A stretch of DNA of 64,000 nt from Symbiodinium sp. CCMP2592 (lineage: Eukaryota; Sar; Dinophyceae; Suessiales; Symbiodiniaceae): contig CAJNDT010003112.1 in assembly GCA_905221615.1 (NCBI GenBank), positions 62,001 to 126,000 of the forward strand, in the 5' to 3' direction. Within the stretch, counting starts at the first letter, position 1, and the number at the start of each line of letters is the position of its first letter. Under the pieces are notes generated by a model, which worked only from the letters and a program-made list of their open reading frames with translations, did no database searches and was not told the origin of the DNA. The translations under genes were made by a program, and so were the position numbers. This document shows, piece by piece, positions 321-56,455 of the stretch.

Positions 321-410
321 GTGCTTCTTGTGGAGCCCAATCCTGGGAATCAGCTGAAGCTGGAAAGGCGCCTTGTCGAAAAAAGACCCCAACAAGAAGG
401 GGCAACACAG
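321..410 (+). CDS. Candidate internal exon, unknown protein
   Basis: An open frame of exactly 30 codons follows CCTTTTGCAG. It reads VLLVEPNPGNQLKLERRL and then a charged stretch, and ends at ...ACACAG before a GC (possible GC donor). C-type telomere-like repeat lies upstream and a hairpin element plus G-type repeat downstream. The frame was chosen by openness, so it may be chance. No family recognised. Confidence 0.35.
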
Positions 411-470
411 CGGCCTTTACAAGGGTCCTATAAGGGTTACTATAAGGGGTCTATAAGGGTACTAATAATA

Positions 471-580
471 GTATAGGGGCCTATAAGTATTACCTATACC
501 ATTTTGGGGGCTCCTTATTAGAGTTATAGTATAATATGCCCCAAAGACTTATTCTAGTTATTTAGGCCCTTATATTATCC
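471..580. mobile_element. Hairpin element, family 3 (ATAGGGGCCT...AGGCCCTTAT)
   Basis: Inverted termini (ATAGGGGCCT and a diverged AGGCCCTTATAT) enclose an AT-rich core with TTTTGGGGG, TTATTA, ATTATAGT and CCCAAAG segments. The same order recurs in at least seven other places in the window. It has no coding capacity, so it is MITE-like or introner-like. Confidence 0.6.
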
Positions 581-589
581 CTCAAGCGT

Positions 590-1155
590 CGCCCGAGGTT
601 CTCGGGGATAAAGTTTAGGATGTAGAGGTTTGGGGTTCAAGGCTTTAGGGTTTAGGGCCTTCCGGTTCGGGGCTGTTGGGCTGTGAGGCCTCATCTCAAG
701 CCCCAAATTTAGGGTTCGCCCTTTAGAGACCAGAAAATCCCACACCCCCTTCCAAAGGCAGGTCATGTGAACCCCAAGGCTGTGTGTAGAGCTTCTGATG
801 GTTGGTGTTCACGTTCTCGCGGTAGGGGTGTGCGTGCCTGAACCCTAAACTCAAGGCCTAGGCCGCCCACCTCCGTGGTTGGGCGGCGCTTAAGCCCCTC
901 GACCCCGATGGCGCAGAGCGAACCATTACGCTTGCCCGCCTTTCCGCAGCCATGGGGACGGTAGCACCTAGGATAGGCGCAGTACCGGAGCAGGTTCTCC
1001 TCGAAACCAGTACTGGTCCCTATTCAAGTGTTTGCCTTAAACCCCCCCCTTCACCTTGAAGGGTGGTCGGCCAATTTGGGCCCCAAGGGGGGCCTGGAAG
1101 CAGAGTTCCAGGACCTGCCGGTCTTAGGGAAACTTGGACCAAACTGCGGCCCTGC
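590..1155. other. Gene-poor stretch with G-type then C-type repeat
   Basis: Degenerate TTTAGGG-like sequence (605-660) is followed by a short C-type patch (836-860) and a GC-rich unique stretch (860-1010) without a convincing frame. No gene is supported. Confidence 0.5.
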
Positions 1156-1265
1156 CGCTCTGCCCTGCTGCCCTGCCTGCCCTCCCCTGCCCTGCCCTGC
1201 CCTGTCCCGCTGCCCTGCCCTGCCCCGCCCCTGCCCTGCCCTCCCGCCGCCCTCCTGCCCTGCCT
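1156..1265. repeat. CCCTG/CCTGC low-complexity tract
   Basis: Imperfect tandem CCCTG/CCTGCC units explain the proline/cysteine-rich open frames on both strands here. A second tract of the same kind lies at 27970-28016, and both are followed by a shared motif TAAAAGGAATAGG. Confidence 0.85.
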
Positions 1266-1604
1266 GCCCCTCCTTCGGCAAGACTGGTGCTGGTTTTGCC
1301 TCTAAATTCCGTTCATAAAATGTGCATTCTAATGGGGCCAGGTGCGAAAGTCGAGGTCCCCTCCTTTCTTTTCGTGTGGTTGCTTTAAACCCTGTGGTTG
1401 CAGAAATATAGAAAACCAATGAAAACCATAGAATGAGTTTAGGGGCTAAACCCTAAAAGGAATAGGTTTGGGTGGTTTGGCCGCCTTAGACGGTGTGGGG
1501 TGGGAGAGTCAACAGAAAGAGCCATCCACAATCAGGCTCCAACAGCCAATCGTCAGAAGACGACGCACTCGAAAGTACACTGTTGCGAGATACTTCCGCT
1601 TAAG

Positions 1605-1925
1605 GGCAAACCCTAAACCCTAAACCCTTAATCCCTAAACCCTAAACCCCTAAACCCTTAAACCCCAAACTCCTATCATCCCCTAAACCTCTGAACCCTA
1701 AACCATAAACCCCAAACCCTACCATAGCCTAATCATGCCGGGGTTCTGCGAAAGCGGTCGAGTCGAGGCCAGGCCTGAACCGGGGTCCATAAGGGTTCCT
1801 TTAAAGGGATCTATAAGGGTTCTAAAAAGGGGTTTAGGGTTTAGGGGTTTAGGGTTTTAGGGGTTTAGGGTTTAGGGGTTTAGGGTTGAGGGGTTTAAGG
1901 GTTTAGGGTTTAGGGCTTAGAGTCT
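1605..1925. repeat. CCCTAAA tract, 60-bp island, then TTTAGGG tract
   Basis: C-type telomere-like units run from 1605 to about 1730. A GC-rich island follows (about 1735-1798), which can be read MPGFCESGRVEARPEPGS, and G-type units run from 1829 to 1922. This is a compact example of the C-island-G arrangement seen across the window. Confidence 0.75.
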
Positions 1926-2068: not shown

Positions 2069-2294
2069 TGGTAAGGGGCGTAGCACTAAAGGGGGAGACC
2101 GGGTGCCACATTTGCAGAACAAATGTTTTTATGCTAGCAGCCGCTGTGGATGAGCGAGTGTCTCCATTTAATCGCCCAAACCCTTCAATCCCATACCTAA
2201 CCCCGAAGCCTTAAACTCAAAACGGTACCCCGAGTACCGAACCGAATCAGTGCATTAGCAGAAGGAGGGTTTTGGACATTTTTTGGTGTGGAGC

Positions 2295-3758
2295 ATGTCA
2301 ATTTCCGTGGAAGTCTCACTGCTCAGTGGCATGACAGCTACTGTGCAAGCAGGCCTGGACGAAACAGTGGAGACGTTGATGCAACGGGCACAGATCGCAC
2401 TTGGAGTCGGCAAAGGGCGGCTGCTGGACTCCTCCGGAGTCGTTCTGGACGGATGCGCAGAGACCTCGAGCTCTGGCATTCAGAACGGCGATTCGCTGAC
2501 CTTTCACGTAAGCGGAGTCCGCATTCAGTCCAATCGTTTAGATTTTGCTGCCCTTCTTGGTGATGGATCCGTGGTGACCAGTGGTGGTGCTTTTGGGGGC
2601 GGCAGTAGTGCTGTGCAGGGCCAGCTGCAAAACGTTCAGCAGATCCAAGCCACTGATCTCGCTTTTGCTGCCATTCTTGGTGATGGATCGGTTGTGACCT
2701 GGGGTGCTGCTGGCAAAGGTGGCGACTGTAGCGCTGTCCAGGGTCAGCTGAAGAATGTGCAGCAGATCCAAACTACTGGCGGTGCCTTTGCTGCCATTCT
2801 TGGTGATGGATCGGTTGTGACCTGGGGTGCTGCTTGGGAAGGTGGCGACTGTAGCGCTGTCCAGGGTCAGCTGAAGAATGTGCAGCAGATCCAAGCCTCT
2901 GCCTACGCTTTCGCTGCTATTCTTGGAGATGGATCGGTTGTGACTTGGGGACATGCTAACTGTGGTGGCGACAGCAGCGATGTGCAGGATCGGCTAAAGA
3001 ATGTTCAGCAGATCCAAGCCTCCCACCATGCTTTTGCTGCAATTCTCGACGACGGATCCGTTGTGACCTGGGGTGTTGCTGGCTTGGGTGGCGACAGTAG
3101 TGCCGTGCATGGCCAGCTGAAGAATGTGCAGCACATCCAAGCCTCTGCCGACGCTTTTGCTGCCATTCTTGGCGATGGATCGGTTGTGACCTGGGAAGAA
3201 AGTGGTGAAGGTGGCGACTGTAGTGCTGTGCAGGGCCAGCTGCAAAACGTTCAGCAGATCCAAGCCACTGATCTCGCTTTTGCTGCCATTCTTGGTGATG
3301 GATCGGTTGTGACCTGGGGTGCTGCTGGCAAAGGTGGCGACTGTAGCGCTGTCCAGGGTCAGCTGAAGAATGTGCAGCAGATCCAAGCTACTGGCGGTGC
3401 CTTTGCTGCCATTCTTGGAGATGGATCGGTTGTGACCTGGGGTGTTGCTGACCGGGGTGGCGACAGTAGTGCTGTGCAGGGCCAGCTGAAGAATGTGCAG
3501 CAGATCCAAGCTACTGGCAGTGCCTTTGCCGCCATTCTTGGTGATGGATCGGTTGTGACCTGGGGTGCTGCTGGCAAAGGTGGCGACTGTAGCGCTGTCC
3601 AGGGTCAGCTGAAGAATGTGCAGCACATCCAAGCCTCTGCCTACGCTTTTGCTGCCATTCTTGGTCATGGATCGGTTGTGACCTGGGGCCGTGCTGTTTA
3701 TGGCGGCCACAGCACTGCTGTACAGGGCCAGCCACGGCCCTTTTGTACCATAGTCTAG
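2295..3758 (+). CDS. Ubiquitin-like domain plus RCC1-like repeat protein (paralogue A)
   Basis: The frame is 487 codons plus stop. It starts at ATG 2295 because the MSI(S/T)V(E/Q)VSLLSG start is shared with paralogues B and C; the TTG/GTG codons upstream have no such support. Residues 1 to about 76 look like a ubiquitin fold domain (GRLLDSSGVVLDG, then GDSLTFHVSGV). Ten repeats of 41 residues (123 nt) follow, with core FAAILGDGSVVTWG, a GGD(S/C)SAVQGQLKNVQQIQA tail and one Trp each, like RCC1/HERC beta-propeller blades. Such proteins may act as binding platforms, possibly in ubiquitin signalling, but the function here is unknown. There is no signal peptide or membrane segment. The last 10 codons leave the repeat consensus, and relics of the lost C-terminus follow the stop. 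Confidence 0.85.
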   Translation: MSISVEVSLLSGMTATVQAGLDETVETLMQRAQIALGVGKGRLLDSSGVVLDGCAETSSSGIQNGDSLTFHVSGVRIQSNRLDFAALLGDGSVVTSGGAFGGGSSAVQGQLQNVQQIQATDLAFAAILGDGSVVTWGAAGKGGDCSAVQGQLKNVQQIQTTGGAFAAILGDGSVVTWGAAWEGGDCSAVQGQLKNVQQIQASAYAFAAILGDGSVVTWGHANCGGDSSDVQDRLKNVQQIQASHHAFAAILDDGSVVTWGVAGLGGDSSAVHGQLKNVQHIQASADAFAAILGDGSVVTWEESGEGGDCSAVQGQLQNVQQIQATDLAFAAILGDGSVVTWGAAGKGGDCSAVQGQLKNVQQIQATGGAFAAILGDGSVVTWGVADRGGDSSAVQGQLKNVQQIQATGSAFAAILGDGSVVTWGAAGKGGDCSAVQGQLKNVQHIQASAYAFAAILGHGSVVTWGRAVYGGHSTAVQGQPRPFCTIV

Positions 3759-15960: not shown

Positions 15961-15995
15961 AGACCGAAAACCCCATATCGTTACCATGCTTACAG

Positions 15996-16072
15996 GGTCC
16001 TCAGGGACCGCAGATTATTTGCCGTGTCGGGAGCTCCCTGTGTCGACGTCTTGCAAGGAGACTCTGAAGCAT
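15996..16072 (+). CDS. Candidate exon
   Basis: CTTACAG|GGTCC opens the frame VLRDRRLFAVSGAPCVDVLQ, closed by TGA at 16071. C-type repeat precedes and G-type repeat (16085-16260) follows, the common arrangement. Unknown protein. Confidence 0.4.
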
Positions 16073-16350
16073 GAAAGATGAGAGGATTTAGGGTTCGTGG
16101 GGTTTAGGGGCCGGGGTTCCGCCTACGATTTAGGGTCTAGGGAGTTTAGAGGCCAGGGCTTACGGCTCCGGGAGTTTTTGGGGTTGAAGGGTTTAGGGTT
16201 CAGGGGTTTTGGGGGTTAGAGTTGGGGCTTAGGGCTTAGGGGTTAGAGGTTCGGGATTAGGGTGGTATGGCATGAGAGTGGCACATGATTCACATTTGTG
16301 TCTGAGTTTGGGGTGTCGGCCGAAGACCTACTGAACGAGAGGTCTCTAGT

Positions 16351-19093: not shown

Positions 19094-19493
19094 GATGGAA
19101 CCTGAGCGTCCTCTCAGCATTCTAGAACAAGGGCTCTGCAAAGTTTCTAGCCCCTCTGAAAACCCAGCCCCTAAAATTCAGGCACCGGTCATATCATAAG
19201 AAGCCCTGCAAACCGTAAAGTGCCCTAACCCTAAAACCGAAACCCTAAACCCTAAGCCGTTCTAAACTGGGTGACGACCTGAGGGTAAGCCTTTATAGGC
19301 AAGACAGACCTCTGCGGAGAGAGAAAGTCCGATACCCTTTAACAAAAAACCGTTCTAAACCATTCTAAACCCCCCAAACCCCAAACCTAGACTTTCTAGA
19401 CCCCTAAACCCTACAACCCCTCAACCCCTAGACCCTTACAACCCCCCACACCTAAAACCCGAAGCCACAAAGCGAATCGCCAGGCAGCCCCTC

Positions 19494-19540
19494 GGCCGAC
19501 CCGGAGTTGGTGAATGTGGAGATCGAGCCCTCTAAGGCTC
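19494..19540 (+). CDS. Candidate short exon
   Basis: ATCGCCAG|GC opens the frame SPSADPELVNVEIEPSKAP, acidic. C-type repeat lies upstream and G-type array (19561) immediately downstream. Short and tentative. Confidence 0.35.
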
Positions 19541-19560
19541 CCCCCCCCCGAAAAGAGGGA

Positions 19561-24824: not shown

Positions 24825-26040
24825 AGGTGGTTTTGGCAAGCAAAAAAGCCAAAGATCTGCAGATCTGATACGTTCGTCGTACGTGATTATGAACACAGCG
24901 GTGTGGATGGTAAGTGCTGCTGTAATGGTGGCGTGAATTGCACGAAAGAAGCTCATGTTGCTTTCAACCAAGCAGCGGTGTCAGCACGCGAGGTGGCAGG
25001 TATAGTGAACCACACACACACACACACACACGCATGCACATGCACTCTCATGATAGACATGACTTAGGTTTCTGCAGTCAGCTTCGTCAACAGCTTATAG
25101 CAGCGATCGAAGGGCAGATAACTTCTGTTAAAAGTCAAGAATGCTGTATCCTGCACAAAGAACACGCAAGCAACACCACCTTGTTCCTACAATACACGAA
25201 CAGAGGCATTCTCTTCATGTCGTGTACCTTGTGAGGCTCAGAACATAATTAATTGAAAGCCTCAAAGCCCCGCTCGCTTAAACCCTAAACCCTAAACCTC
25301 ATCCTCTTGAAGTTTCTAGTGCCCTTGAAGGTGACCTGGAGTTGGCCGACGTCGCTCGCTCGCCCTCGTCGCCTGGGGCCAGGTTTAGGGCTTTTAGGCT
25401 TTGAGTGTTTGGGGATAGGGTTTAGGGTTTAGGGCTGTTGGGCGTTGAGTGTTTGGGGTTAGGCTTTTTGGTTTAGGGTTTAGGGTTGAGCGTCTTGGGT
25501 TTAGCGCTTTTGTAGGTCTCGGGAGTGTAGGAGTTAGGGGTTTAGGGATTTAGGGTTTCGTGTATCGGGGATCGGGTTTTGGGTGTGGCCCGGTATCAGG
25601 TGTCAAGAAGAGGCACTCTGGATTTCGATGTCTGAAAAGGGGCTTACAGATAAAACTCATCTATACGGTATACAGTACAGTATACAACATTTAACAGATA
25701 ACATCTAATCTGTAACTACAGGTTGGTGTCGGTTTTGTGGTTGTAGATGTTGGGGCTTGAGGCCGTGGAGCTGCTTGTTACGCTGGGTTTATTCACGAGA
25801 TTTAAGATCTAAGATCTTGCGGAAGGGGATGTAAATCTTGCTCGAAGGGGTCAGCTTCTTAGTCGATGGAAGAATGTTTCTCTTGTTTCTTGTGTGCTCT
25901 CTCTGAACCCTACAGCCCTACAGTTCCTAAAGACTAAACCCCGGCCCAGACCCTAGAGCCCTAATCTGTTGTGTTGCGATTCCGAAAGAGAGTGACAGAA
26001 AGAGAGCGAGAGATCAGGAGGGGAGTAGCGGAGTGAAGGG
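24825..26040. other. 3' flank of paralogue B and repeat-rich sequence
   Basis: A CA microsatellite lies at 25013-25032. A C-type patch (25279-25300) precedes a candidate exon and G-type repeat (25383-25590) follows it. A short GAGA stretch occurs near 25985-26010. No complete gene seen. Confidence 0.5.
25310..25382 (+). CDS. Candidate internal exon with GTTTAGGG donor
   Basis: The frame EVSSALEGDLELADVARSPS is open from CTTGAAG to GGGGCCAG|GTTTAGGG. The telomere-like repeat itself would supply the 5' splice site. C-type repeat precedes. No family known. Confidence 0.4.
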
Positions 26041-31309: not shown

Positions 31310-31700
31310 GCTCCGAAACCCTAAACCCTAAACCCTAAACCCTAAGCTCCGAAACCCTAAACCCTAAACCCTAAACCCTAAAACCATAAGGCCCTGCAGA
31401 CCCAAGCCCTGAATCCTCAAACTTCAAACCCGAAGGACCTTGGGCCCTAAACCCTAAACATCGACACTTACAAATCCATGTAAATCCCCCAAAGCCTAAA
31501 GCCCTAAAGCCAAAAAGGAAAACCGTAAACTGCTAAGGACCCTGAGCCCCCAAACCCTATAGATCCGTCGTAGAAGGAGCCTTTCTAGATACCCTAAAAC
31601 TTGAACCCACAAACCCCACCAAGACCCTAAACCCCTAAACCCTAAACCCTAACCCTAACCCTAAACTCTAAACCCTAAACCCTAAACTCCTAAAACCTGT
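31310..31700. repeat. CCCTAAA blocks
   Basis: Two compact C-type arrays (31310-31385 and 31622-31690) with degenerate units between. It ends 55 bp before the next candidate exon. Confidence 0.85.
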
Positions 31701-31756
31701 AAAGCTTGAAGGATCCCACGCCCTGAACTACCAGGGACTTATTTTGGCTTCGCCAG

Positions 31757-31828
31757 GTTCTCGCTTTCCTCGGCTTCAGCATCGGCTTCTCCGAGAATGC
31801 CATGGCCCAGAGCAGGGCGTTTGAAGAG
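31757..31828 (+). CDS. Candidate internal exon
   Basis: CTTCGCCAG|GTT opens exactly 24 codons: VLAFLGFSIGFSENAMAQSR and AFEE. C-type repeat precedes and G-type (31836 onward) follows. Unknown. Confidence 0.45.
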
Positions 31829-32039
31829 TTTTGTGTAGGGTTTAGGTTTGTTTAGATTTTCTGTTGGCTTTTGGGGTAGGGGTCGTGATTTTATTTAAGT
31901 TTTCGGTTGGTAATGTTTGGTACGGTTATAGGTTTGATGGAGCAGAACGGTGTTTATCAAACCCTCAGCCCTAAATCCTAAACCCTATACCCTAAGCCCC
32001 AAACCCTGCACGCTGAAGTCCTGAAGCCTCCGCTGGGTC

Positions 32040-32085
32040 GAGGTCGCCGGAGTTTCCTGGGCCGCCATCGTCGAGACCTGAACAG
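32040..32085 (+). CDS. Candidate short exon
   Basis: An island ending ACCTGAACAG|GTCTAGGGTTTAG, readable as AGSRSPEFPGPPSSRPEQ. The donor merges directly into G-type repeat. Tentative. Confidence 0.3.
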
Positions 32086-40289: not shown

Positions 40290-40356
40290 CCGGCAGCATC
40301 AAGAAAGGTCATCTTGGATTTCGACCGGACATTGACCAGCGCCCCGGCGCTGACAG
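40290..40356 (+). CDS. Candidate exon
   Basis: PGSIKKGHLGFRPDIDQRPG then AD, ending GCTGACAG|GGTTTAG. C-type repeat upstream and a G-type start downstream. Unknown protein. Confidence 0.4.
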
Positions 40357-42420: not shown

Positions 42421-42530
42421 TATAGATCCCTTATAGTAACCCTTATCGACCCCTTTAAAGGAACGCTATTCCCATTCTCAAGGCCCCTATGGTACACCAC
42501 CCTAACCCCCTTGCGAAAGCTGAAGGAAAG

Positions 42531-42589
42531 TATTACCCAATCGAGATCGACGCCGTCTTGCGCTGCCCTCAGTGCTTCGGGTTGTTCAG
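42531..42589 (+). CDS. Candidate internal exon with CPQC motif
   Basis: GGAAAG|TAT opens YYPIEIDAVLRCPQCFGLF, ending TTCAG|GGC before G-type repeat. The CXXC could be half of a zinc site. First of four closely spaced islands (42531-43394) that may belong to one gene. Confidence 0.5.
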
Positions 42590-42683: not shown

Positions 42684-42780
42684 TCTTTTCGCTCAAGACA
42701 TCGAAGCCCCCCAAAAATCCCGGAGCCAGCAGGCCTTCGACTCCTTCGACCTCCCTACTACGCTCGACGCCCCGAAGCTT
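42684..42780 (+). CDS. Candidate internal exon
   Basis: GATGCCAG|T opens LFAQDIEAPQKSRSQQAFDS, continuing FDLPTTLDAPKL. G-type repeat precedes it, so the simple C-island-G rule is not obeyed here. Unknown protein. Confidence 0.45.
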
Positions 42781-42985: not shown

Positions 42986-43306
42986 CGGGGGTGAGGGTGT
43001 TTGCTCTCAGCAATGCACGGCAGTTACTGGAAATACTTGTTCCCAGAATGGACATCCGGCGAGCTCTCTGTTGTTGCTAGGTTCTGGGAAGGCTTCGCTG
43101 TTAAACGACAGCCGAAGCCCTGAAGCTAAACCCCCCCAACCTCTAAGCCGTTTCGACACGAAGCCCCCCCTTAACTTAGCTCTTTTTTCGATCAGCTGGT
43201 AGAAATCATATAAGAGCTTATCGAATCCCCCTAATCCTACACTCCCTGGTAGACATTCTTGGGAAACCCATATAAGTCCTCATCGAATCCGACCCCCCCT
43301 GCTAAG

Positions 43307-43394
43307 ATCCCGATCATGGGCGAGTGGTACGGGCAAGTCCACGAGCTGATCCTGAAGGAGTCAGCTCAGACAGCTGCATCTGGGAGCTACTTTC
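43307..43394 (+). CDS. Candidate internal exon
   Basis: TGCTAAG|ATC opens IPIMGEWYGQVHELILKESA and QTAASGSYF; G-type repeat begins about 10 bp after. Strongly protein-like residue use. Unknown protein. Confidence 0.5.
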
Positions 43395-43399
43395 GTTTC

Positions 43400-44940
43400 G
43401 TTTTTGGGGTTTAGGGTGTAGGGTTTAGGGGTTCAGGGTTTAGGGTTTAGGGTGTTTTGGGTTTAGGTTGTAGGGTTTAGGGTTTAGGGTGTAGGGTGTG
43501 GGGTTTAGACCTCGCAGGTTTTTAGATGGCTTCAGAAGGGGCTCACTTTTGATCACTATTGCTGAAATAGGCGTGAAGGCTGTAAAGCAGCAGGACAGCT
43601 TAAAAAAGTATCTTTCAGATGAGGTATAGGGATTTGATGCAGAAACGTTCCTAAACTCCAATCCCTAAACCCTGACTGTTTTAGCTTCCACGTCACAGCC
43701 CTCAATCCCTGTGACGGGTATAGGCTTCGAGACTATGTGCGGCTTGAAGTATCGATCGTGGAGCTTATGGGATCTGTAGGGGGCCCCATTCGGGATTTAT
43801 CAGGGCTGGTTTTGGGGGTTTTAGGGTTTGGGGTTCTTTAGGCTTTATTCGACTTTAGAGGCTTGTTTCTTTTAGAGGCTTAGGTTTAGGGGCAATCCAG
43901 AAGAAGAGGCACCCGTAATCCGATCCAGAACCTTCCTGTTTTTGTGGCATCCATGTCTACATCCTAATACAGAATCCCTGCAAGCCCTGCATTCGATAGG
44001 TTGAGATGGGGCTGGGGTTTAGTTGACAAGCTTTAAACCGTACGCCCTGCGCAAGCTGCGTAAAACTCAGGATTTTATAGCCCAGCAAACACAGGTCGTA
44101 GAACCTGCGTGTAGAGTTGTGCCCCCGGAAGGTTACTCGAGAGAACATTGCTGGTGCGGTGGCAGGCTGCAAAACGATTCGTCCCCGTGACGGCATGCTC
44201 CGCGGCTTCAACCAAGCAAAAACAACAGCAACGTAAGCGCCTGAAACCTACTCAGGCTTGCAATGCAGCAGCCCTAATGACCACAACTGCAGGAACCCCA
44301 AAAGCCCTAAAATCCTAAACCCTCAGCCGTAATGAGTGCTCCGTTCTTGTGTGAAAGTTAGTCAGAAAGTATCCCTGTGATTTTGATTTTGGCGCTGATA
44401 GCATCAGTAAAGTTCTGGTGTTACTATTACTATGAAGCTTTCTTTTGGCTTCCCCAGACCCTGCCCGCAGAAATCGTTGCTCCGACCTTCAAGTGTTCCA
44501 TTGGCAGCTCCCCACACCCTAAACCCAAACACAGTTCCCAACACCTCTCCTCCGGAGACCCAACATGCCCCTACTTTCGGTTTAGGGTTTGGGCTTCCCT
44601 GACAGCTTCTGGCTCTGGGATTCGGGCTCCGGCTCAAGGCCTGGCTGTTCTCGTGGCTGCCCAAGAACTCCCCCTTCCTTACATCCACCCTTGTCCTTTG
44701 GGTTGATAGACAGAGCCCTATACCTATATCCCTTAATAGGAATTATTTCAGAAGGTCTACTAGCCGGTCTGTTTATTCTTTTGGGGGAGCCATGAAAAAG
44801 GACAAGGCTGCATCCCCCAGAGAACCTACCGTCAAGATCCTGCGAGTCTCGCTTCCTCGTGCATCCTGAGACACACACGCTCTCAAGCGCAAGCGACACA
44901 AGCCCAGCCTCGGGTATGTAAAGTCTCCACCATGTCATTC
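43400..44940. other. Repeat-rich, gene-poor
   Basis: G-type (43405-43510, 43800-43890) and C-type patches. Open frames between 44377 and 44706 on both strands overlap and show no domain. Confidence 0.4.
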
Positions 44941-46600: not shown

Positions 46601-46605
46601 TTAAG

Positions 46606-46662
46606 GATTGTCATGTCGGCCGGCTTGGGTGATGTCATCGAGGACTGGAGGTTCGTGCCTGA
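46606..46662 (+). CDS. Candidate exon
   Basis: GCTTAAG|G opens IVMSAGLGDVIEDWRFVPDV before GCTTTAGG. G-type-like sequence follows. Unknown protein. Confidence 0.4.
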
Positions 46663-46902: not shown

Positions 46903-46904
46903 GT

Positions 46905-47001
46905 GGGTGGTTGTCAAAATTAGGGTCCCTTTTTGGATCCTTATTATAATACGGCACCTTATATTTAGCCCAAAATGGGACCATAATTTTGACAACCATC
47001 T
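46905..47001. mobile_element. Hairpin element, family 1
   Basis: GGGTGGTTGTCAAAATTAGG and CATAATTTTGACAACCATCT; AGGT duplicated at 46901-46904 and 47002-47005. The left copy of the duplication lies inside the end of the neighbouring hairpin. Confidence 0.9.
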
Positions 47002-47585: not shown

Positions 47586-47647
47586 GAGTTCCTTCGCCAG
47601 ACGCTGCCGTTTGAGCGGGCCCCGACCACGCACGTGGTCTCCAACAG
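47586..47647 (+). CDS. Candidate internal exon
   Basis: TTCCCAG|GAG opens EFLRQTLPFERAPTTHVVSN, ending AACAG|GCCCG (GC donor possible). C-type repeat follows rather than G-type. Unknown protein. Confidence 0.4.
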
Positions 47648-47749
47648 GCCCGCTTCAGCTTAAGCCCTAAACCCTAAAGCCTCCAGCCCAAAACCCCAAA
47701 CCGACCATAAACCCTAAACCGGATCCGAGGCCCCGGGAAGGTACAGGGG

Positions 47750-48289
47750 CTAACTTTTTATGCAGATGATCGCGGGAACCTCCCGTCTACTCTTACTGTT
47801 GGACCCGTTTCTATCATAATCGTTGTTGCAGGAGGGCGGCCATTTATCAGGGGTCTACATCACTTGCCATGTTGCTTCGTCAATAGGATCAGGTTTCGAT
47901 CCGTGCAGTCCTGCGGGGAAGAAGTGTACCTCAAAGCACATTTTGCATTCAGAAAACATAAAACCAACCCCTGAACCGTAAACCCTCACAAAGGGGCGTT
48001 TCTTCTGTGATGAGCATAGAACTTCGTGGGTTCGACTTCGAGGACTGGAGAGCCAATTATTTGAGGGGTTGAGGCTTTTAGGGAGTTTCCGTTTGGGTCT
48101 ATGTTTCAAAGCTTGAGCCCTTTGTTTGGGACGCCCGGTTGTTGAAGGAGAGGGTAAAGGACTTCACTAAACTTTATACCCTAGACTCTAGACCCGCTTA
48201 AGTCTGAAGGGCCCTTATCTGGAATTTCAGCATTCCTAACATGTAATGACCGAGATGAGACCTGTAAGTCACCATCAACATGTCCCAGA
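47750..48289. other. No gene seen
   Basis: Unique sequence with few repeats. An 84-codon minus-strand frame (47855-48109) has no recognisable domain. Confidence 0.4.
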
Positions 48290-48381
48290 GACTCCAACAT
48301 CCCCTAACTAAAGGAATATTCCTTAAATCATATTAGGGTCCCTACTATAATTTAAGGTATATTCCTTAATTAAAGGATATT
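48290..48381. mobile_element. Truncated family 9 hairpin
   Basis: GACTCCAACATCCCCTAACT to CTTAATTAAAGGATATT. The right terminus is replaced by a CCCTAAA array that starts abruptly. Confidence 0.75.
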
Positions 48382-48592
48382 AAACCCTAAACCCTAAACC
48401 CTAAACCCTAAACCCTAAACCCTAAACCCTAAACCCTAAACCCTAAACCCTAAACCCGTCTCTGGGGTCTTCAGAGCCCTTAGCTCTAACCCGAGAGACC
48501 CGAGGCTTACAAGTCTCATCCCCTTTGGCAACACGGTTTAGAGTTTAGGGTTTAGGGTTTAGGGTTTAGGGTTTAGGGTTTAGGGTTTAGGT
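48382..48592. repeat. CCCTAAA array, 80-bp island, TTTAGGG array
   Basis: (CCCTAAA)n at 48382-48455 and (TTTAGGG)n at 48541-48590 face each other across an island that can be read VFRALSSNPRDPRLTSLIPF. The cleanest example of the arrangement in the window. Confidence 0.9.
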
Positions 48593-48594
48593 TT

Positions 48595-48694
48595 GGGAGT
48601 TTCCGAAAATAGGGGTTCCTTATTTTGGGCCCTTATAACAAGGATCCTAGTATTTAGGGTACTCTGTTAGGGTCCCCTATTTTCGGAAACCCCC
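48595..48694. mobile_element. Hairpin element, family 2
   Basis: GGGAGTTTCCGAAAATAGGG and CCCTATTTTCGGAAACCCCC; flanks GTTT and ATTT, an imperfect duplication. Confidence 0.85.
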
Positions 48695-48923
48695 ATTTCC
48701 CCAAGCCTCAGAGCTACGAACTTCCACAGAAGCCCTAAACCCCAAACCCTGGCAGAGCTTTTCGCTGCCCAGGCCCCGAAATCCGGAAACCCGAAACCAC
48801 GAAGAAAACGCAGAGAAGGATGAACCCCTAAGCCTTAAACCCCCAAACCCCTAAACCCCTAAAGGCCTAAACCCAAAAACCCTAAACCCTGGTAGATGCA
48901 TTAAAAAAAGAAGCCCCAGAGAA

Positions 48924-48998
48924 GGATGGTCTTCAACGAGGAGGGGCGGCTTGTGGACTTCTCCGAGCCGCTCCTGCACATGCCCGGGGGCTCAACTC
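48924..48998 (+). CDS. Candidate internal exon
   Basis: CCAGAGAAG|G opens MVFNEEGRLVDFSEPLLHMP and GGSTH before TTTTTTTTGAGGTTTAGGG. C-type repeat upstream and G-type downstream. Unknown protein. Confidence 0.5.
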
Positions 48999-48999
48999 A

Positions 49000-51190
49000 T
49001 TTTTTTTGAGGTTTAGGGTTCCGGGGTTTAGGGGTTTAGGGTTCAGGGTTTAGGGGGTTCAAGGTTTAGGGGGTTTGGGGTTTAGGGGGTCGGGGTTTGG
49101 GGTTTGGGTTGTTTATATAGTAGAGTAAATTTGTATTTTGGGTTTGTCAAGGTAGGGGGGTTTGCGGGTTGTCGGCTGTGGGTGCTCTCATGCCGAAATC
49201 CCGAAAAAGTTGGAGGCGGGAAAGACCATGCCTGGGGTCTCGGGTGGGCACTTGTTATTAGAGGATATAGGTTCTTGTAGTAGAGCGCCTCCGTTGTAGG
49301 GTTTACAGCAGGATTGCATGGGCGCTCTGCCGCTGTTCCAACCTCGCGACTGTATGTGTATGTGATGCGGTTTCACAGAAGTTCATTCTGATAAGGACCA
49401 CCTCAAAGAATCGCAGATTGAAGTCTCCTCAAACCCCCTGACAAACCGTCGGCTGTCTCGGTTGTCTCGGTTGAGGTCGGCATGTAGATCTCAACTCGAA
49501 GCCCTATACCCAAGGTGTCTTGTATCTTTTCGATGTAGCTCCAACCCTGGACACTGGAAGAAGGAATCCTTGTTTCTTCAGGGTCTACTTGGGAACTAGA
49601 TTTCAACCGATCCTGAAAAGCAGTCCCCCACCGAAGGTGGGCTGGGGTTCTGGGCTTAGGTCTCTAAGGCTGTTGGCTTAGGATTACAGATTGTAGAGTT
49701 CCATCCAACGCCCGAGACTCTAATGTCCCAGTAGCCGGCGCAAATGAAATGCCCCACACTCCCAAAAACCTCAGAACAACCCTAGACACAACCGGAAGTC
49801 TAATGCCTTAAGCCACAGACCCTAACCCTAAAACCCTGAACCTTATATAAACCCCCAAGCCCGAATCCCTGAAACCCTAATCCTCAAAGGGGAAAAGGAG
49901 GGACCCTTAATGGGGACCCCTACCCTATGATGGGCTATATAATGGGTATATAATGGCTATATTAAGGGTATATACCTCGGGGTCCTTATTGAGGGTCCCT
50001 CCTGTTACCCTTGGAAATCCCTAAACCCCAAACCCTACAAGCCCAAAGCTCCAGACAGGTTCAACAAGACAGCGGCCTTTTTTCCCCAGGCACGGGGGCT
50101 AGCACACTTCGGCTGTTTGTGGATTTCACTGTAGGATTTCTATAGGCTTTTCTTGATGGGTTTATTGAAGGTTTTATGAAGTTAAAACGGGAACAAATAA
50201 TAATCGTGGTTGTAAGTAGGTCAACCTAAATGACCAGAACAGCCTATCACCTCCAAGTACGGTGTTTGCAGCCGCACCTGTAAGTGCGCACGAGCCTGCA
50301 AGTAGCCTTCGCCACAGACCTGGGCTTCAATAGAATGTACACAAATAGCTCCGTCAGATAAGGAGTAGACCGCAGATTGCGATTGGCATCCTACCCAGGT
50401 TTTCGATGCACATTTCTGGATGAAGGGCTTCCTGGTTCTTTGGGTACTCGTAGCCGTTCTTTTTTGTTCTGGAGCCGCAAAGCAGGTGTTGTCGGGTTTA
50501 GGGTTTACGGTGTAGAGTCTGTTGTTTGGGGTGGGCAGGGTTGGTCCCAGACCCGGTAGGGTGTACCCAGAGGTTCCGAACTCCCCGTAAGAAGGAGCCC
50601 TGAACCCTATATTTTAGAACCCTAGTATAGATCCCTTATGAACCCCGTTAAGGGTCCCGTTAAAGGGAACCCTATTCTAGTTATTTAGGCCCCTACATTA
50701 AATCCTTTTTCATAGCCCTTATAGTAGTCCTAGCGAAGCCTCGTATATACCCGTACACCCTATTCTATTGGTCCCCTGAAGCTTAAACTCATACCAGGCG
50801 ACCCGAGATTTGGCGAAGGGCAAGAGCCAGTGCTTGCTGATGGGCGATGGCGTGGGCGACTGCCCTCTCGGCTTAAGAACTCCTTCAAGGGCTCTTTGAA
50901 GTGGTCGAAAAGGGATCTCCAATAGGGTTCTAAAATGTAGGGTTCAAGGGTTTAAAATGGTGTTGGGTTCCGGCAGAGTTTCCTTTTGGCTTGCTCCAGA
51001 TTTCTTCGATGGTTTGATGAACTCTCTAAGAATAAGAATTGGTTCTATCAGGTCCCCAATTCTTATTCCCAAATCCTAAAGCAAAATCCTAAAGCCTGAA
51101 TCCTAAAGCGAAATCCTAAAGCGGGCCTAAAGGGTAAAGGTTTGAGGGCTCGGAGAAAGACTTCGGGTTTTCAGATCTGGAGTGTGCAAT
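49000..51190. other. Gene-poor; G-type tract and family 7 hairpin
   Basis: G-type (49005-49110), unique sequence with short overlapping frames, C-type (49810-49880), a family 7 hairpin, a partial family 3 right end (50640-50700), and a small fold-back AATAAGAATTGG...CCAATTCTTATT (51030-51068). Confidence 0.5.
49885..50014. mobile_element. Hairpin element, family 7
   Basis: CAAAGGGGAAAAGGAGGGAC and GTCCCTCCTGTTACCCTTGG, about 90% alike to the copy at 33750 by eye. Confidence 0.85.
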
Positions 51191-51193
51191 ACC

Positions 51194-51292
51194 GCTGATG
51201 GACAAAATCCTGCATTACCCATTATAAGGAATATACCATAATTCCCATAATTTAGGGTCCTTAAGGTCATGCAGGAGTTTGTCCATCAACAG
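51194..51292. mobile_element. Hairpin element, family 4 (inverted copy)
   Basis: GCTGATGGACAAAATCCTGC and GCAGGAGTTTGTCCATCAAC. The core runs in the opposite orientation to 33138 (ATTATAAGGAATATACCATA first). Confidence 0.85.
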
Positions 51293-51549
51293 TATGTCAT
51301 TGGGGGTGTAGAGAGTAGGGAGTTTGGCGTTTACCAGTGAAGGGTTTTTATAGTAATACGGAGGTTGGAAAATTAGAAGTAGTGGCCCCTTATAGTCCCA
51401 AATGCGGTTAACTTCATGTTTAGGGGGCCCCGAAGCAGCATTCCAGTCCAAGTCATGATATCTTACGGGTATGAGGTGTTGACTTCAAGATTTCTGCAAT
51501 ACTGGGCCACGTTGCTCGAAGTCATCTGGGCTTTGAGTTCATCTAGAGA

Positions 51550-52035
51550 CTCCCGATCCCAACCCTTCCTAAACCGTAAAACCCGAACCCCTAAACCGCT
51601 AAGCCGCACGGAAAGCCTTAAACCGTAGACCCAGAGCCCTAACCCCTAAATCCTTAAACCCTTAACCTTGAGCCCTTAAACCCTCAAGCCGCCCTGAACC
51701 TTAAGTCCTAAGCCCTAAACCCTCAGCCCCAAACTCCCTCAGCCCTAATCCCTGAAGATGCTCTCAACCCCAAACCCTAAAGCCTAAAGCCCTAAACTCG
51801 AAGCCCCAAACTCCCCAAGCCCTAAACTCCCCAAGCCCTGAACCCTAAGCCCTAAACCTACGCCTTCATCCTTAAGCCCCAAACGAAGCGCCGAACCTCA
51901 AGCTTTAAATTCCCTAAACCCTAAGCCCCTAGAGCCCAAACCCTAAACCCTAGACCGTAAGCCCTAAACCCTAAGCCCTAAGCCCTAAACCCTAAGCCCC
52001 AAACTCCCTGAGCCCCAAACTCCCTAAGCCCCAAA
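51550..52035. repeat. Long degenerate CCCTAAA/CCCTAAG block
   Basis: Nearly 500 bp of CCCTAAAC, CCCTAAGC, CCCCAAACT and similar units. No gene. Confidence 0.9.
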
Positions 52036-52052
52036 GAGTGAAGATGCTCAAG

Positions 52053-52110
52053 GCACCATGTCTCAGGGCTTGGACCTCGAGCCCTTCAAGGCTCGACTGA
52101 CTCACTGGGG
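52053..52110 (+). CDS. Candidate internal exon
   Basis: GCTCAAG|GC opens TMSQGLDLEPFKARLTHW, ending at CTGGGG|GTTCCC. C-type block upstream and G-type downstream. Unknown protein. Confidence 0.45.
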
Positions 52111-52663
52111 GTTCCCTTTAAAGGGATCTACAGGGGTAGAGTTTAGGGCTTAGGGTTTTTTGGGGTTTTGGGGTTTTTTTTTGGGCTCTTAGAGTTTGAG
52201 GCTTAGAAGATTTTAAGGAATTCCGATCTAGGGCTGCTCGCTATGGTGCTGTTTGTTCCTTACGATGTTGTTCGTATTGATAGTTTTAGTGTTTCGGGTT
52301 CTGGCTGCGCAAGTAAGAAAGGCTGAAACCCGGGATACCTGGGAATCTAGCAAGTGTGTCTGAAAGCATTTAGATGGTCTCTGCACTGCTCTGCAGAAGC
52401 TGAAGACTCCAAGTATACAAATAAACAATAATCACCCTGAGCTCTGAACCGCAACCCGTTGAGCTACTTCTATGATGTTTGTGAACATAATTTGCGGTAA
52501 TCTCGAATTATGAGGCTAAATACGCCACAAGTGAGCAACTCGAACACCCAACTCCATCCTAAACTCTAAATAATAAACCCTACACCCTACAGTAAAGCGT
52601 AAACGTTCAAGCCTAAAGCCCAAACCCTACAGCCTGAGCCCTACAGCCCAAGCCTTAGCCCCT

Positions 52664-52772
52664 AATATAGGTGCCTTAATATTCAGAGTAGGGTTTTGGG
52701 GCAAATTATACTATAGATATAATAAGGCCCCCCCCGCCAAATGGTACAGGTAACTATTGAGGCCCCCATCTT
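52664..52772. mobile_element. Hairpin element, family 3
   Basis: TAATATAGGTGCCTTAATAT and ACTATTGAGGCCCCCATCTT are inverted around TTTTGGGGCAAATTATACTA. Confidence 0.6.
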
Positions 52773-52859
52773 ATCGGCACTCTTACCCTGAACCCTGAAC
52801 CCTAAACCCTAAGCCTTAAACCCTAAACCCTAAACCCGAAGTAACCCTTGAATTCCCAG

Positions 52860-52931
52860 ATTGGTTTCCTGAACGAGAAGATCGAAGAGAGGATGCCGGA
52901 GCAGTTTGGCTCGTCCACAAAGCTTCTTCAG
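52860..52931 (+). CDS. Candidate internal exon
   Basis: GAATTCCCAG|ATT opens exactly 24 codons, IGFLNEKIEERMPEQFGSST and KLLQ, ending CTTCAG|GGGTTTAGGG. C-type repeat precedes directly and G-type follows directly. Among the clearest islands. Unknown protein. Confidence 0.55.
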
Positions 52932-53223
52932 GGGTTTAGGGTTTAGGGTTGCTTCTTCAGGGGTTCTATTGGGGATTCTGGGGACCTCGGACATGGAGAG
53001 AACGTTTAGCCTGTAATTTTTGAATTTTGAAATCAGATCTTGCTCAGAGAAAGTTTGAGTTTTGTTTGTTTGGGGCATGGTTAAAAGGACATGGCAACCA
53101 GAAGAATACCAGGTTCGAGTATTGAAGAAGAGACAAAGGGCATCGCAGCCAGAAAATATGTCAGGTTCGAGGCATTCTGGGCTGCACCAGAGAGGGGCGG
53201 AATAGTCTGGAAGGCAGGGTAAC

Positions 53224-53327
53224 GGTTGATGATATAAATCCTGCATTACCCATAATAAGGAATATACTATACCATAATTCCCATAGTTTAGGGTCCCTAA
53301 GGTAATGCAGGATTTATATCATCAACC
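53224..53327. mobile_element. Hairpin element, family 4 (TGATATAAATCCTGC type)
   Basis: GGTTGATGATATAAATCCTG and CAGGATTTATATCATCAACC are perfect inverted ends. Confidence 0.9.
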
Positions 53328-53810
53328 GAAGTAGCCCTAAACAAGTGTATTTCCGGAACCAAAATAGGAACGGGGTACAAGAAGGATCCACTAGAGTTAT
53401 AGTTGGTTCTAGCAATGCCCGAGGTATGTACTACCTTACTTACCTTAAACCCTCTTTCCTTATATGCCCATTGTACGTTGAAGTATATCCAGACCCTGAA
53501 GTAAAACTGACGGTGTCGATGTTTAGGGTTTCGGGTTCTGGAGAGTTCGCTAGGTCTTGGGCTTCAGGCACCTGCTTTCATGCATCGCCTCACACTTATC
53601 AGCTCGTGATACAGCACTCCAGCCCAAACTCTAAGCACTTCCAAAAACTCACACGCCTCCACATGAACACAGCCCCAGAGTAAACACAGGCCCCCACTCT
53701 AAACTGCCCAATCCCCCAAGCCAGAAACCCCAATGCCTAAACGCTAAGCCCCAGACCTTAAAGCCCAAACCCCAATCCCTAAATCCTAAACCTAAAGCCC
53801 TTAAACTCCT
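53328..53810. other. No supported gene
   Basis: A 112-codon + frame (53345-53683) contains TTTAGGG-derived codons and no domain. C-type repeat occupies 53690-53805. Confidence 0.45.
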
Positions 53811-53814
53811 TCAG

Positions 53815-53914
53815 GTTCCAGCAGAAGTTCGACGTCGTCGTCGCCGGGGATGGCCCTGTCCCCCCACTGGCCTTCCGCGCCATCGGCGCGGCGCCGGGGT
53901 CAGAAGAGCCGAGC
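53815..53914 (+). CDS. Candidate exon, resembles the region before a DEAD-box Q motif
   Basis: AACTCCTTCAG|G opens FQQKFDVVVAGDGPVPPLAF and RAIGAAPGSEE. DEAD-box RNA helicases have a conserved F/Y...V.G...P.P...F..... segment just before the catalytic core, and the order here matches it. No Walker A or DEAD motif was found nearby, so this is a weak inference. C-type repeat upstream. Confidence 0.4.
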
Positions 53915-53919
53915 TGAGA

Positions 53920-55270
53920 GCCGCGGTGAGAGAAGCTAACATAATGGTGTAAGAAGAGTTTCGGTCTTTATGGGGATTTGTAGGGTTTGAAAAGGTTTTT
54001 GTAATTTTTGTGGTTGGGGGTTTAATGTTGCTTTGTAGAGTGTAAGACTGTGAGACCGATTCAGTCATTGGTCCTGAAACAGGTCGCTCTTGAGTTATCG
54101 CAGGGTGTATACTTCCAAAACAGTCTTTGTCATAAGCCCTAGGTTCCAAGTTTTTAAATCCCAGCTCGTCAGCCCCAAAGCCCAATTCCCTAATCCAGGC
54201 TCTCGCAAACCTCAGCTCCTTTTGGGACGAGACTTGCGGCAGACAAAAAGGGGGCGATGCTTCTTTTTTGCTGGGTGTTGGTGCAGGGGCACTATAGGAT
54301 ACCATACCATGCCATAAATACCATACTATACTCCACTCTACTATGCCATAGCGCAAAGCGCTGTTGCAATGTTGAGGCACCTTTATATGGTAGCTTGGTA
54401 TTCCTGCTTGCGTTCTGGGCCGTGTCACAAGCTTCTCTACGTAGGACCCTGTAAACATGAGACTCTAAACTTGTAAATCCCCATCTCTGAAGCTTGCATT
54501 CTCAACCCTAAACCTCAAAGCCTGAACACTCGAACCTACACATTGTGACCCAAAGCCCAAACAACCTAAACCCTCAATCGTTGCACTCTAACGACTCCGA
54601 AGAAGTCTTGGAAGCATTGGAGCCGAAACCTAAACCTAAAACCTGGCTTAGTGTTTACGCCTGCAGCCCCAAATCTGAGCTCAAAACGCCAAGAAATTCT
54701 CCCTGAGGGCCAAAGAAGCGGCGAAACCCTCCAAGTTAAGGATTTAGGGTTGCGAAAAAAAGCAAAACACAAAGCCCTTGAGCCCTTGCAGTTTAGGGTT
54801 CGATGGGGCTTTACCTACACCAGCTCAAGCCCTAAGGCGCCTAAGCAGAAGCCTCTCGCCAATGTTTTAGCGTTACTTTGGGGTTTTGTTAGCTTTAGAG
54901 TTTCGCAAGCAGAGCCCGAGACAGTCAACCCAAAGTTGTAAACCCGGCGCCGTAAACCGGAAGCCCCACACCCTCCACCCTGAACTCTCAATGGCCTGAA
55001 AGCCTGCATGCCAAAACCAGTAAGACAGTAAACCGCCAAACACTGCGGAGCCCTAATATCCTGAAGCCTTACAGCTAAGACCCTAAACGCTGGTCGGTAA
55101 AACCTCATAAATGCTCAATGCCACATTAAAGCCATGATGTTTACCCCCAAAGAAGCACTTTAGAGAGCCCCCTAAAACGCTTTATGCCACCACATATAGC
55201 ACCTTTGACCCGCAAACACGCCAGCACGAAAACTCGCAAAGCCTAGGCCCTACAGGGGGCCCTTTGCTCA
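53920..55270. other. Gene-poor
   Basis: Unique and degenerate sequence. A + frame at 54651-54941 contains a possible exon (KRQEILPEGQRSGETLQVKD) followed by TTAGGG-like units. Frames on the two strands overlap, so none is called. Confidence 0.35.
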
Positions 55271-55274
55271 CCAA

Positions 55275-55349
55275 ACCCTCCGCTCCGAGGTGTGGAAGTT
55301 CTTGGGGTTCGATCCGACGACACCGGAGCACCTGCAAGAGGAGTTCGAG
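55275..55349 (+). CDS. Candidate exon
   Basis: TLRSEVWKFLGFDPTTPEHL and QEEFE are open in a GC-rich island after a C-type unit; the donor is unclear. Strongly protein-like residue use. Unknown protein. Confidence 0.45.
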
Positions 55350-56455
55350 TTATATAGGTTACATGAGGGATAGGTAGCTTTGCAAGGGCCACAATGTGAG
55401 GCTTTGTAAAAGTCTATCTCTATCAGGGCTTTATCGGCATTTACAAGAGTTTAACTAGAGAAGTTCTACAAGGATTCTAAATGCAATGGTTCGTGAAGGG
55501 GTCTCACCAGGATTCTATGCGTTCAGCGTCAGAGCTTTGAGGTCTGGGGCATATTCTTCTTAATATCTTATTGTATCTTTGCCGATAGGAGGGGTGCTCG
55601 GGTTTTGGGGTTTTTAGATTTCGGGGCTTATGGTTCAGGAGTTTTCATGCTTAGGCATTGGCGGTCCGCAGCATGTGGCAGTCCTTCCTGGGATCCTTAC
55701 GCAAAGCATTCAAAACTCAATGTCGGAATTAGGGTCCCTAAGGCCCCAGACACAAACCCTAAACGCTTCTTTGCGGAAGATCCCTCTTGCTAGTGTTTCG
55801 AGTCACAGAAGGCCTGTGGTCTCTAGTGACAACATTGATCTCCTGTGTGAGGCTTCGTTTGGGTGGTGGTCTATGTCAGGTAGATATATACCGGAAATGC
55901 TTTGCTAAAGCCTAAGCCATTAGGAAAAACCCGAGCAAGGTTTCAAGTTTGGACTGCTAGGATATCTTTCCGAAACCTTGAGCCCTAACCCATAAGCGGC
56001 AAAATCAAATCGTAAAACACCAACCCTCCCTAAACCCTAAACCTTCCGGAAGAGGAGCATGCCGGCGCCATCTACACCACTTTGCTGTGCTGGCCCTCCT
56101 GTGTCACAATCCCAGGGGTTTAGGGTTCAGGTCTTACTGCGGGGGGCTTTGATATTTTGCCCTGTTTGCCTTGATTTTGGGCCTCAGGGTCTTTAGAGTC
56201 TTTAGAGACTTGGAAGCTTTGTTTTAACTTGGCTCTGTTAGGGTTTAGGGTTTACAGGTAATATTGTGCGCAGCTTGAGAAGCGCGTGTTGTTTTTGTGT
56301 TATCAGAGAATAGGGCAGCAAGTACGCCGGAGCCGGCTTACTTCCTCGGCAGACCTCCAATTATTCCATGTGGAGCAGTTTCTTGCAGTTTTGTCGGCAA
56401 CAACATGAAGGCTCAGAAGGACCTCTTCGCTGAAACACTTGAGACCTTCACCACC
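55350..56455. other. Mixed region with two possible small exons
   Basis: An island at 56042-56117 (LPEEEHAGAIYTTLLCWPSC), between C-type and G-type repeat, and one at 56306-56455 (RRSRLTSSADLQLFHVEQFL; then NMKAQKDLFAETLETFTT in another frame) may be exons. The frames change between them, so borders are unresolved. Confidence 0.35.

Follow-up and report, generated by a model that had tools for sequence, protein, structure and literature searches.

Strand-sorted telomere-like repeats around the exons of a Symbiodinium 5'-nucleotidase gene, a pattern with exceptions

The introns of dinoflagellates, which are long and use non-canonical donors, are poorly understood. Compositional signals are known at intron ends, where G-runs follow donors and a branch point and tract precede acceptors. 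Introners, in the definition of Farhat and Dougan, are reportedly multi-copy related introns with direct repeats of 3-5 nt at exon borders. The definition also requires, at each end of the intron and no more than 30 bases from it, inverted repeats 8-20 nt long (PMC10666404, excerpted text). Dinoflagellate telomeres are (TTTAGGG)n, as stated in an excerpt of PMC11453091. Titles and abstract openings found in a literature search contain no description of telomere-like repeat orientation around exons.

The window analyzed here is the whole 64,000-nucleotide stretch of Symbiodinium sp. CCMP2592 DNA. Exact TTTAGGG-rotation 7-mers cover 2,296 bp of it on the G strand (TTTAGGG) and 3,277 bp on the C strand (CCCTAAA), against 265-373 bp (G) and 233-293 bp (C) in three first-order Markov shuffles. 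Genome-wide, (TTTAGGG)3 is matched 73,488 times in the forward and 75,164 times in the reverse orientation (overlapping matches counted), and the reversed pattern, used as a control, 0 times and once. These telomere-unit arrays lie within contigs, away from the ends, as interstitial telomeric sequences do. Degenerate TTTAGGG is a very abundant interspersed repeat of the Symbiodinium genome and fills the long introns of one gene class. The window yielded no Rfam match at gathering score and no ARAGORN hit. The dinoflagellate spliced leader, with the sequence given in an excerpt of PMC8045281, has 429 exact copies in the genome (reversed control, 0).

A cytosolic 5'-nucleotidase gene (UMPH-1, PF05822) with 11 exons occupies roughly 40,303-53,915 of the + strand (Table 1). 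Pfam searches of single predicted peptides (10, 10 and 1) returned weak matches only, and one of these, to UMPH-1 at 0.16, led to the gene. The spliced exons match PF05822 (UMPH-1/cytosolic 5'-nucleotidase III) with 86.8 bits (E 2.2e-24; curated cut-off 23.7), a score that was 76.9 bits before exon 52053..52109 was included, and match 7zee with E 3.7e-18. Borders were set without cDNA and are approximate. The exon at 40303..40356 falls outside the stretch aligned to PF05822 and 7zee and was assigned by order and by its DFDxT motif.

The initial annotation had described ten clear exon-like islands between a C-strand and a G-strand block, and all ten occupy such positions in the window's block list. 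As exons, three (48924, 52053 and 52860) are borne out by UMPH-1 and the other seven are candidates; the frames tried of islands 15996, 17199, 31757, 32040 and 35103 had no Pfam match. Two islands had been listed as exceptions: 47586 is a real exon and really off-pattern, and 42684 lies between two UMPH-1 exons that leave no part of the protein for it to encode. The AG/G borders ascribed to the islands are present at some exons, not at all of them. Exons running directly into a repeat, another feature of that description, are seen at 40356 and 52930, where two mapped UMPH-1 exons end at a repeat-borne donor-like site.

Table 1 Features of the window. C and G denote the strand of the nearest telomere-like repeat on each side; exon borders are approximate.
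Feature	Position	Strand	Remarks
UMPH-1 exon, VILDFDRTLTS	40303..40356	+	C left, G right; runs into GGTTTAG; borders approximate
UMPH-1 exon, GKYYPIEIDAVL	42524..42560	+	C left, G right; right border +/- some tens of bases
UMPH-1 exon, IPIMGEWYGQVHELILKESAQ	43293..43368	+	C left, G right; borders approximate
UMPH-1 exon, VTRENIAGAVAGC..GFNQ	44133..44225	+	Exception: G 111 bp to the left, C 80 bp to the right
UMPH-1 exon, RIVMSAGLGDVIED	46603..46652	+	C left; G right, 268 bp away
UMPH-1 exon, EFLRQTLPFERAPTTHVVSN	47586..47648	+	Exception: C on both sides, 321 bp away on the left and 17 bp on the right
UMPH-1 exon, RRMVFNEEGRLVDFSEPLLHM (island 48924)	48922..48999	+	C left, G right
UMPH-1 exon, CLLMGDGVGDCPLG	50796..50870	+	C left, G right
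UMPH-1 exon, TMSQGLDLEPFKA (island 52053)	52053..52109	+	C left, G right
UMPH-1 exon, IGFLNEKIEERMPEQF (island 52860)	52860..52930	+	Runs into GGGGTTTAGGG
Last UMPH-1 exon, stop codon at end	53820..53915	+	C left, G right; right side not intron
Island 15996, candidate exon	15976..16082	.	C..G gap; best codon score 4.9; no Pfam match, one frame
Island 19494, candidate exon	19439..19558	.	C..G gap; codon score 7.2
Island 25310, candidate exon	25300..25380	.	C..G gap; codon score 6.6
Island 31757, candidate exon	31699..31824	.	C..G gap; codon score 8.9; no Pfam match, one frame
Island 32040, candidate exon	32009..32084	.	C..G gap; codon score 7.1; no Pfam match, one frame
Island 42684 ("exception")	42684..42777	+	Codon-like part 42721-42777; inside intron 42561-43292
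C-strand telomere-like tract, example	48821..48891	.	Upstream of exon 48922
G-strand telomere-like tract, example	49009..49110	.	Downstream of exon 48922

The nearest telomere 7-mer is C-strand to the left of 10 of the 11 UMPH-1 exons and G-strand to the right of 9. Nine exons show both, a count equalled by none of 1,235 circular shifts (P=0.00095 under random placement), which upholds the earlier claim that repeats are oriented C before and G after exons. Exceptions remain: 44133-44225 has G to its left and C to its right, and 47586-47648 has C to its right. GC skew over 100 bp, right minus left of the exons, is +0.70 (null -0.004, sd 0.155); with telomere 7-mers masked a reduced skew persists, so that the skew is not wholly telomere repeat. 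Scored by the majority strand among 7-mers up to 300 bp away, 10 of the exons gave no significant orientation (5 of a possible 20, p=0.13). Repeats near exons are strand-sorted, with exceptions, into CCCTAAA upstream and TTTAGGG downstream; the pattern looks real, and the orientation effect is partial.

Segments selected by codon score were compared in the window and at other loci. At a score of at least 8, right skew exceeds left skew in 19 of 24 window segments (p=0.0005) and in 30 of 43 elsewhere (p=0.004), the latter from L001 and L005-L022. Of these loci, L001 and L005-L008 were chosen by a telomere pattern, and L009 and L010 are next to the window on its own contig. A reversed-codon model gave 13/25 (window) and 24/45 (other loci) in the same test, and at score 7 the mean skew difference of 0.213 compares with an average of 0.031 (sd 0.029) for 30 permuted codon models. 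The polarity of codon-scored segments is thus largely missing from reversed-codon and permuted-codon models. Codon score thresholds of 6-9 were tried for the skew test and 6-12 for counts of codon-like segments with C left and G right (C..G) versus the converse (G..C). At score 9 the skew test gave 9/12 in the window (p=0.08) and 21/30 at the other loci (p=0.03), with telomere C..G and G..C counts of one each in the window. Counts of C..G versus G..C were 39 and 17 at score 6, 18 and 4 at 8 (p=0.004), 5 and 2 at 10, and 1 and 0 at 12. Polarity reaches about 160-200 bp from the exon and fades beyond; once telomere-like 7-mers are masked in the codon-scored set, the left side loses its polarity and the right side keeps a weaker one. 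Minus-strand codon-scored segments exhibit a weak effect (n=32).

Kinase/kinesin-anchored exons formed a further set (54 entries, with 49 scored once hits with stops, duplicates and short flanks were dropped). The expected orientation was found for 10 of 13 at telomere-rich loci (p=0.057), and the 36 exons from telomere-poor loci exhibited no orientation effect (16/36). Three RCC1 open frames, with right borders that are presumably not splice sites, lean slightly the same way. At one locus, L026, C repeats predominate on both sides.

With alternating blocks, GC-rich islands would tend to appear flanked by a C and a G tract, and if examples were then selected, chance and composition might account for most of the arrangement. 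Consistent with this, C..G and G..C gaps between exact blocks are equal in number in the window (69 and 69). Their lengths do not differ (medians 146 and 127), nor do those of gaps between fuzzy tracts (194.5 and 270, p=0.13); reading frames are no more open in C..G gaps (p=0.20), and GC content is higher there (0.518 vs 0.487, p=0.008). Among exon-sized gaps, the codon-like ones are mainly of the C..G kind, both in the window (8/16 vs 3/34) and elsewhere (7/15 vs 5/41). The reversed-codon model is also raised in these C..G gaps (window, 5/16 vs 1/34, MWU p=0.009; elsewhere, 4/15 vs 6/41, MWU p=0.0006), indicating that the gap test partly reflects base composition. This partly positive control and the non-significant majority count also speak for chance. 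However, the circular-shift result concerns homology-defined exons of one gene, and the polarity was replicated in other loci with a null control; we consider it improbable that the pattern is mostly chance and composition.

Pairing of the G-strand start of an intron with its C-strand end in the transcript, joining the splice sites, had been proposed from the sequence, each intron being a single G-to-C fold-back. A similar role has been suggested for the inverted-repeat introns of Amoebophrya, as hairpins joining exon borders (PMC7789003, in excerpt). A G start and a C end are present in 7 of the 10 UMPH-1 introns, yet 8 of the 10 switch strand more than once, as with GCGCGCGC in intron 40357-42523. 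Given the repeat polarity, the two ends of an intron are on average complementary: mean duplex energy is -78.0 kcal/mol within the same intron and -67.5 (sd 19.3) for pairs of random 160-mers. However, ends of different introns pair as well (-79.9 kcal/mol, permutation p=0.64), and pairing across a short exon is as strong (-82.9 kcal/mol) over a loop of tens of nt rather than the 730-2,380 nt across an intron. An earlier pairing test with 10 exons and nine introns, one spanning exon 52053, had the same outcome as that with 11 exons. Tract strengths at the two ends of an intron are uncorrelated (Spearman -0.29, p=0.41, n=10). With borders approximate, perfect inverted repeats of at least 8 nt within 30 nt of both ends, as in introners, were found in 0 of 10 introns (5/90 mismatched pairs), and those within 45 nt in 2 of 10 (14/90). 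Pairing of intron ends is accordingly very unlikely to underlie the pattern.

The introns could also consist of introner-type or MITE-like elements whose terminal inverted repeats (TIRs) are telomere-like, exon polarity then being TIR polarity. Introners and inverted-repeat-ended introns are reported in dinoflagellates (PMC11453091 and PMC10666404, in excerpts, and PMC9860276), and other fold-back elements adjoin exons here (L024, L059, L029). Against this, in 53 non-telomeric hairpins (arms of at least 16, loops of at most 350) the left arm lacks clear polarity (p=0.09; 26 positive and 24 negative, with a mean skew of 0.097), hairpins with telomeric arms number just three, all C-left, and UMPH-1 intron splice ends have no matching sequence by eye, in agreement with the inverted-repeat test. 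We consider such elements an unlikely source; MITE/TIR polarity as the cause of exon polarity was not seen in hairpin arms.

Alternatively, sorting may occur in DNA, where non-coding breaks would be healed by telomerase on both sides and rejoined, leaving exons as unbreakable segments with CCCTAAA left and TTTAGGG right. Exon polarity is that of a chromosome with two telomeres, introns are chains of G-to-C units, and no splicing is required. However, head-to-head junctions are rare, with gaps of at most 10 bp in 1/63 G..C and 0/63 C..G cases (7 sources), and polarity stops by 200 bp. This capping by telomerase is doubtful as the cause.

We favor splicing as the most likely cause, with slightly less than even confidence: orientation would be sorted in the transcript, where the two strands carry opposite signals. 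Ten G-strand units contain 10 AG and 9 GT, and ten C-strand units contain no AG or GT and 10 CTAA. The G strand would thereby offer donor-like AG/GG or AG/GT sites and G-runs every 7 nt, and the C strand a branch-point-like CTAAAC every 7 nt, free of AG and GT. Repeats landing or expanding beside an exon may be retained if their orientation fits and lost if not, and the two ends of one intron would need no match to each other. A simple account by exclusion of AG upstream of exons fails: in the 120 nt preceding 10 UMPH-1 exons AG is no scarcer than expected (6.85 per 100 nt vs 4.88 expected). The lack of skew in telomere-poor genes indicates that splicing in this genome can do without it. Also counting against this view are the two exceptional exons, the C repeats on both sides at L026, the weak minus-strand effect, the slight lean of the RCC1 frames, the skew that persists after masking and the share of base composition in the gap test. 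A broader and rather unlikely proposal is that telomere repeats are portable intron ends, with G copies serving as 5' splice sites and C copies as branch-point regions, so that a whole class of long Symbiodinium introns would have arisen or grown through repeat invasion, with exons surviving as capped islands. If orientation-sorted repeats mark exon borders genome-wide, they would provide a cheap gene-finding signal and connect telomere repeats with splicing in a new way.

The arrangement resembles dinoflagellate introners and inverted-repeat introns in having inverted repeats at both intron ends (Farhat 2021, PMC7789003; Dougan 2023, PMC10666404; a review, PMC11453091; as far as the excerpted texts describe them), but here generic telomere-type repeats lie within about 200 nt, rather than repeats of 8-20 nt at the extreme ends, and the two intron ends are not matched to each other. 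As with the compositional signals of introns, introns here start G-rich and end C-rich with CTAA, but the pattern reaches 160-200 nt, consists largely of telomere-type repeats and is absent from telomere-poor genes of the same genome. As in interstitial telomeric sequences, short degenerate TTTAGGG arrays lie distant from chromosome ends; in contrast to them, the arrays here are very abundant and strand-sorted relative to exons.

Codon scoring, with a training set of 2,675 codons drawn from kinesin/kinase matches plus one SDR exon, produced a list of short exon-like segments, among them one peptide with a weak UMPH-1 match. When the plus-strand segments were chained, PF05822 was matched at 5.9e-14; addition of exons 44133, 46603 and 52053 (named by their starts) and trimming of the segment at 47529 to a start at 47586 brought this to 2.2e-24, and the same enlarged exon set matched PDB 7zee at 3.7e-18. 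Most UMPH-1 exons were identified by codon score plus homology; reading the sequence revealed 44133 and 46603, and exon 52053, which contributes 9.9 bits to the profile match, was tested since the initial annotation had named it. Exons were chosen without repeat orientation, though the list of repeat blocks was in view; their borders are approximate, and the aligned stretch does not include the first of them. UMPH-1 is a proven gene in the window. Other coding features are collected in the table.

Coding features in the window and elsewhere in the genome
Feature	Location	Strand	Remarks
RCC1-type open frames	window 2259-3731, 23210-24824, 29407-30768	+	41-aa repeats; RCC1_2 match
Short-chain dehydrogenase gene	window 57250-58353	+	PF00106, PF13561; at least 2 pieces
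Long open frame	window 61508-63997, reaching window end	+	Dynamin_N (1e-12), GTPase match
AAA-type ATP-binding motif pairs, regular spacing	G000:C5035:116951-134987; C1513:206412-221980

The RCC1-type frames matched the RCC1-like domain below cut-off, and their common N-terminus appears ubiquitin-like by eye. The dehydrogenase gene sits in a telomere-poor stretch adjoining a telomere-rich one. The regular spacing of the AAA-type pairs suggests tandem arrays of ATPase genes.

The initial annotation had described exon-like islands with C-strand (CCCTAAA-type) repeats on their left and G-strand (TTTAGGG-type) repeats on their right, and this sorting is real. The nearest telomere 7-mer was C-strand on the left of 10/11 UMPH-1 exons and G-strand on the right of 9/11. 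Both held for nine of the 11, a count reached by 0/1,235 circular shifts (mean 3.3) and improbable under 20,000 random placements (P=0.00095); the exceptions are exons 44133-44225 and 47586-47648. GC skew (100 bp) rises by +0.70 across the exon (null sd 0.155; 0/1,235 shifts as high). A cruder measure, the majority count of 7-mers within 300 bp of 10 UMPH-1 exons, was not significant (p=0.13).

The skew extends ~160-200 bp on each side of the exon and is gone beyond. Masking telomere-like 7-mers abolished the left skew and weakened the right in 82 codon-scored segments, and a reduced skew persisted in the UMPH-1 exons. Because of this limited range and these masking effects, the orientation is an exon-proximal sorting, mostly borne by telomere-type repeats, with no whole-intron gradient. 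G strand at the start and C strand at the end were found in 7/10 UMPH-1 introns, and 8/10 contain several strand alternations. Internal C-to-G switches with no recognised exon also occur in these introns (window 40357-53819), e.g. at 42115-42263; such switches might mark exons that were missed, exons now dead, or recursive splice points.

Among codon-like segments near telomere repeats (score >=8), right skew exceeded left in 19/24 in the window (p=0.0005) and, as a replication, in 30/43 at other loci (L001, L005-L022; p=0.004), as compared with 13/25 and 24/45 for the reversed-codon control. At score 7, the skew difference was 0.213 with the real codon model vs a mean of 0.031 (sd 0.029) for 30 permuted models. 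Exon-sized gaps reaching codon score 5 numbered 8/16 between C- and G-strand tracts (C..G) vs 3/34 for other gaps in the window, and 7/15 vs 5/41 elsewhere (label permutation, 0/5,000). The reversed-codon model was likewise higher in C..G gaps (5/16 vs 1/34 in the window, 4/15 vs 6/41 elsewhere), so the gap test partly reflects composition. Among exons anchored by kinesin/kinase matches, the leaning was seen only in telomere-rich loci (10/13 skewed, p=0.057) and not in telomere-poor ones (16/36). The pattern deserves a genome-wide test.

Genome counts cover 1,098,105,373 bases in 5,383 contigs (window, G000:C3112:62001-126000). (TTTAGGG)3 has 148,652 overlapping matches on both strands together, and the dinoflagellate spliced leader 429 exact copies vs 0 for its reversed control. 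Telomere-repeat density is patchy: in 14 stretches of ~10 kb (L009-L022), repeats cover from 7 to >1,300 bases per 10 kb. The kinesin loci of this one genome form two classes, telomere-poor (L023, L030, L031) and telomere-rich (L024-L029).

Fold-back of intron ends, proposed initially as the means of joining splice sites, is unsupported: in tests resting on 11 exons, duplex energy averaged -78.0 for ends of the same intron vs -79.9 for ends of different introns (p=0.64). Random 160-mer pairs averaged -67.5 (sd 19.3), and pairing across the exon -82.9, with a far shorter loop than same-intron pairing. Since the polarity allows both pairings, it alone is unable to join the splice sites of one intron. 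Transposon TIRs were rejected as the source of polarity, as 53 non-telomeric hairpins lacked clear polarity; telomerase capping predicts abutting G-C junctions, but these are rare. Some fold-back elements near exons have similar arms, at L024 557-682 and L059 668-791 (..TCATGGGACTTAGTAAGTA), with a looser relative at L029 869-982.

Splicing is, we infer, the remaining explanation of the sorting. Dinoflagellate donors, as tabulated in PMC10666404, are mostly GT, GC or GA, with AG|G acceptors. Each unit of the G-strand repeat contains AG|GG, and nearly each GT; the C-strand repeat contains neither and has CTAA in each unit. G-strand copies would thereby offer donor-like AG|GG or GT, and C-strand copies CTAA instead. 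Exons 40303 and 52860 terminate in CAG, followed directly by repeat. Against the splicing explanation, AG depletion upstream of UMPH-1 exons was looked for and absent, and telomere-poor genes splice without sorted repeats.

In the literature searched, which left out most subscription papers, no description of strand-sorted telomere repeats at exon borders was found. Published work describes introners and inverted-repeat introns in dinoflagellates (PMC11453091) and, for Amoebophrya, proposes that intron hairpins bring exon borders together (PMC7789003). Inverted repeats of 8-20 nt within 30 nt of both intron ends, one part of the definition of dinoflagellate introners (PMC10666404), were found in 0/10 UMPH-1 introns, and in 2/10 when 45 nt were permitted.
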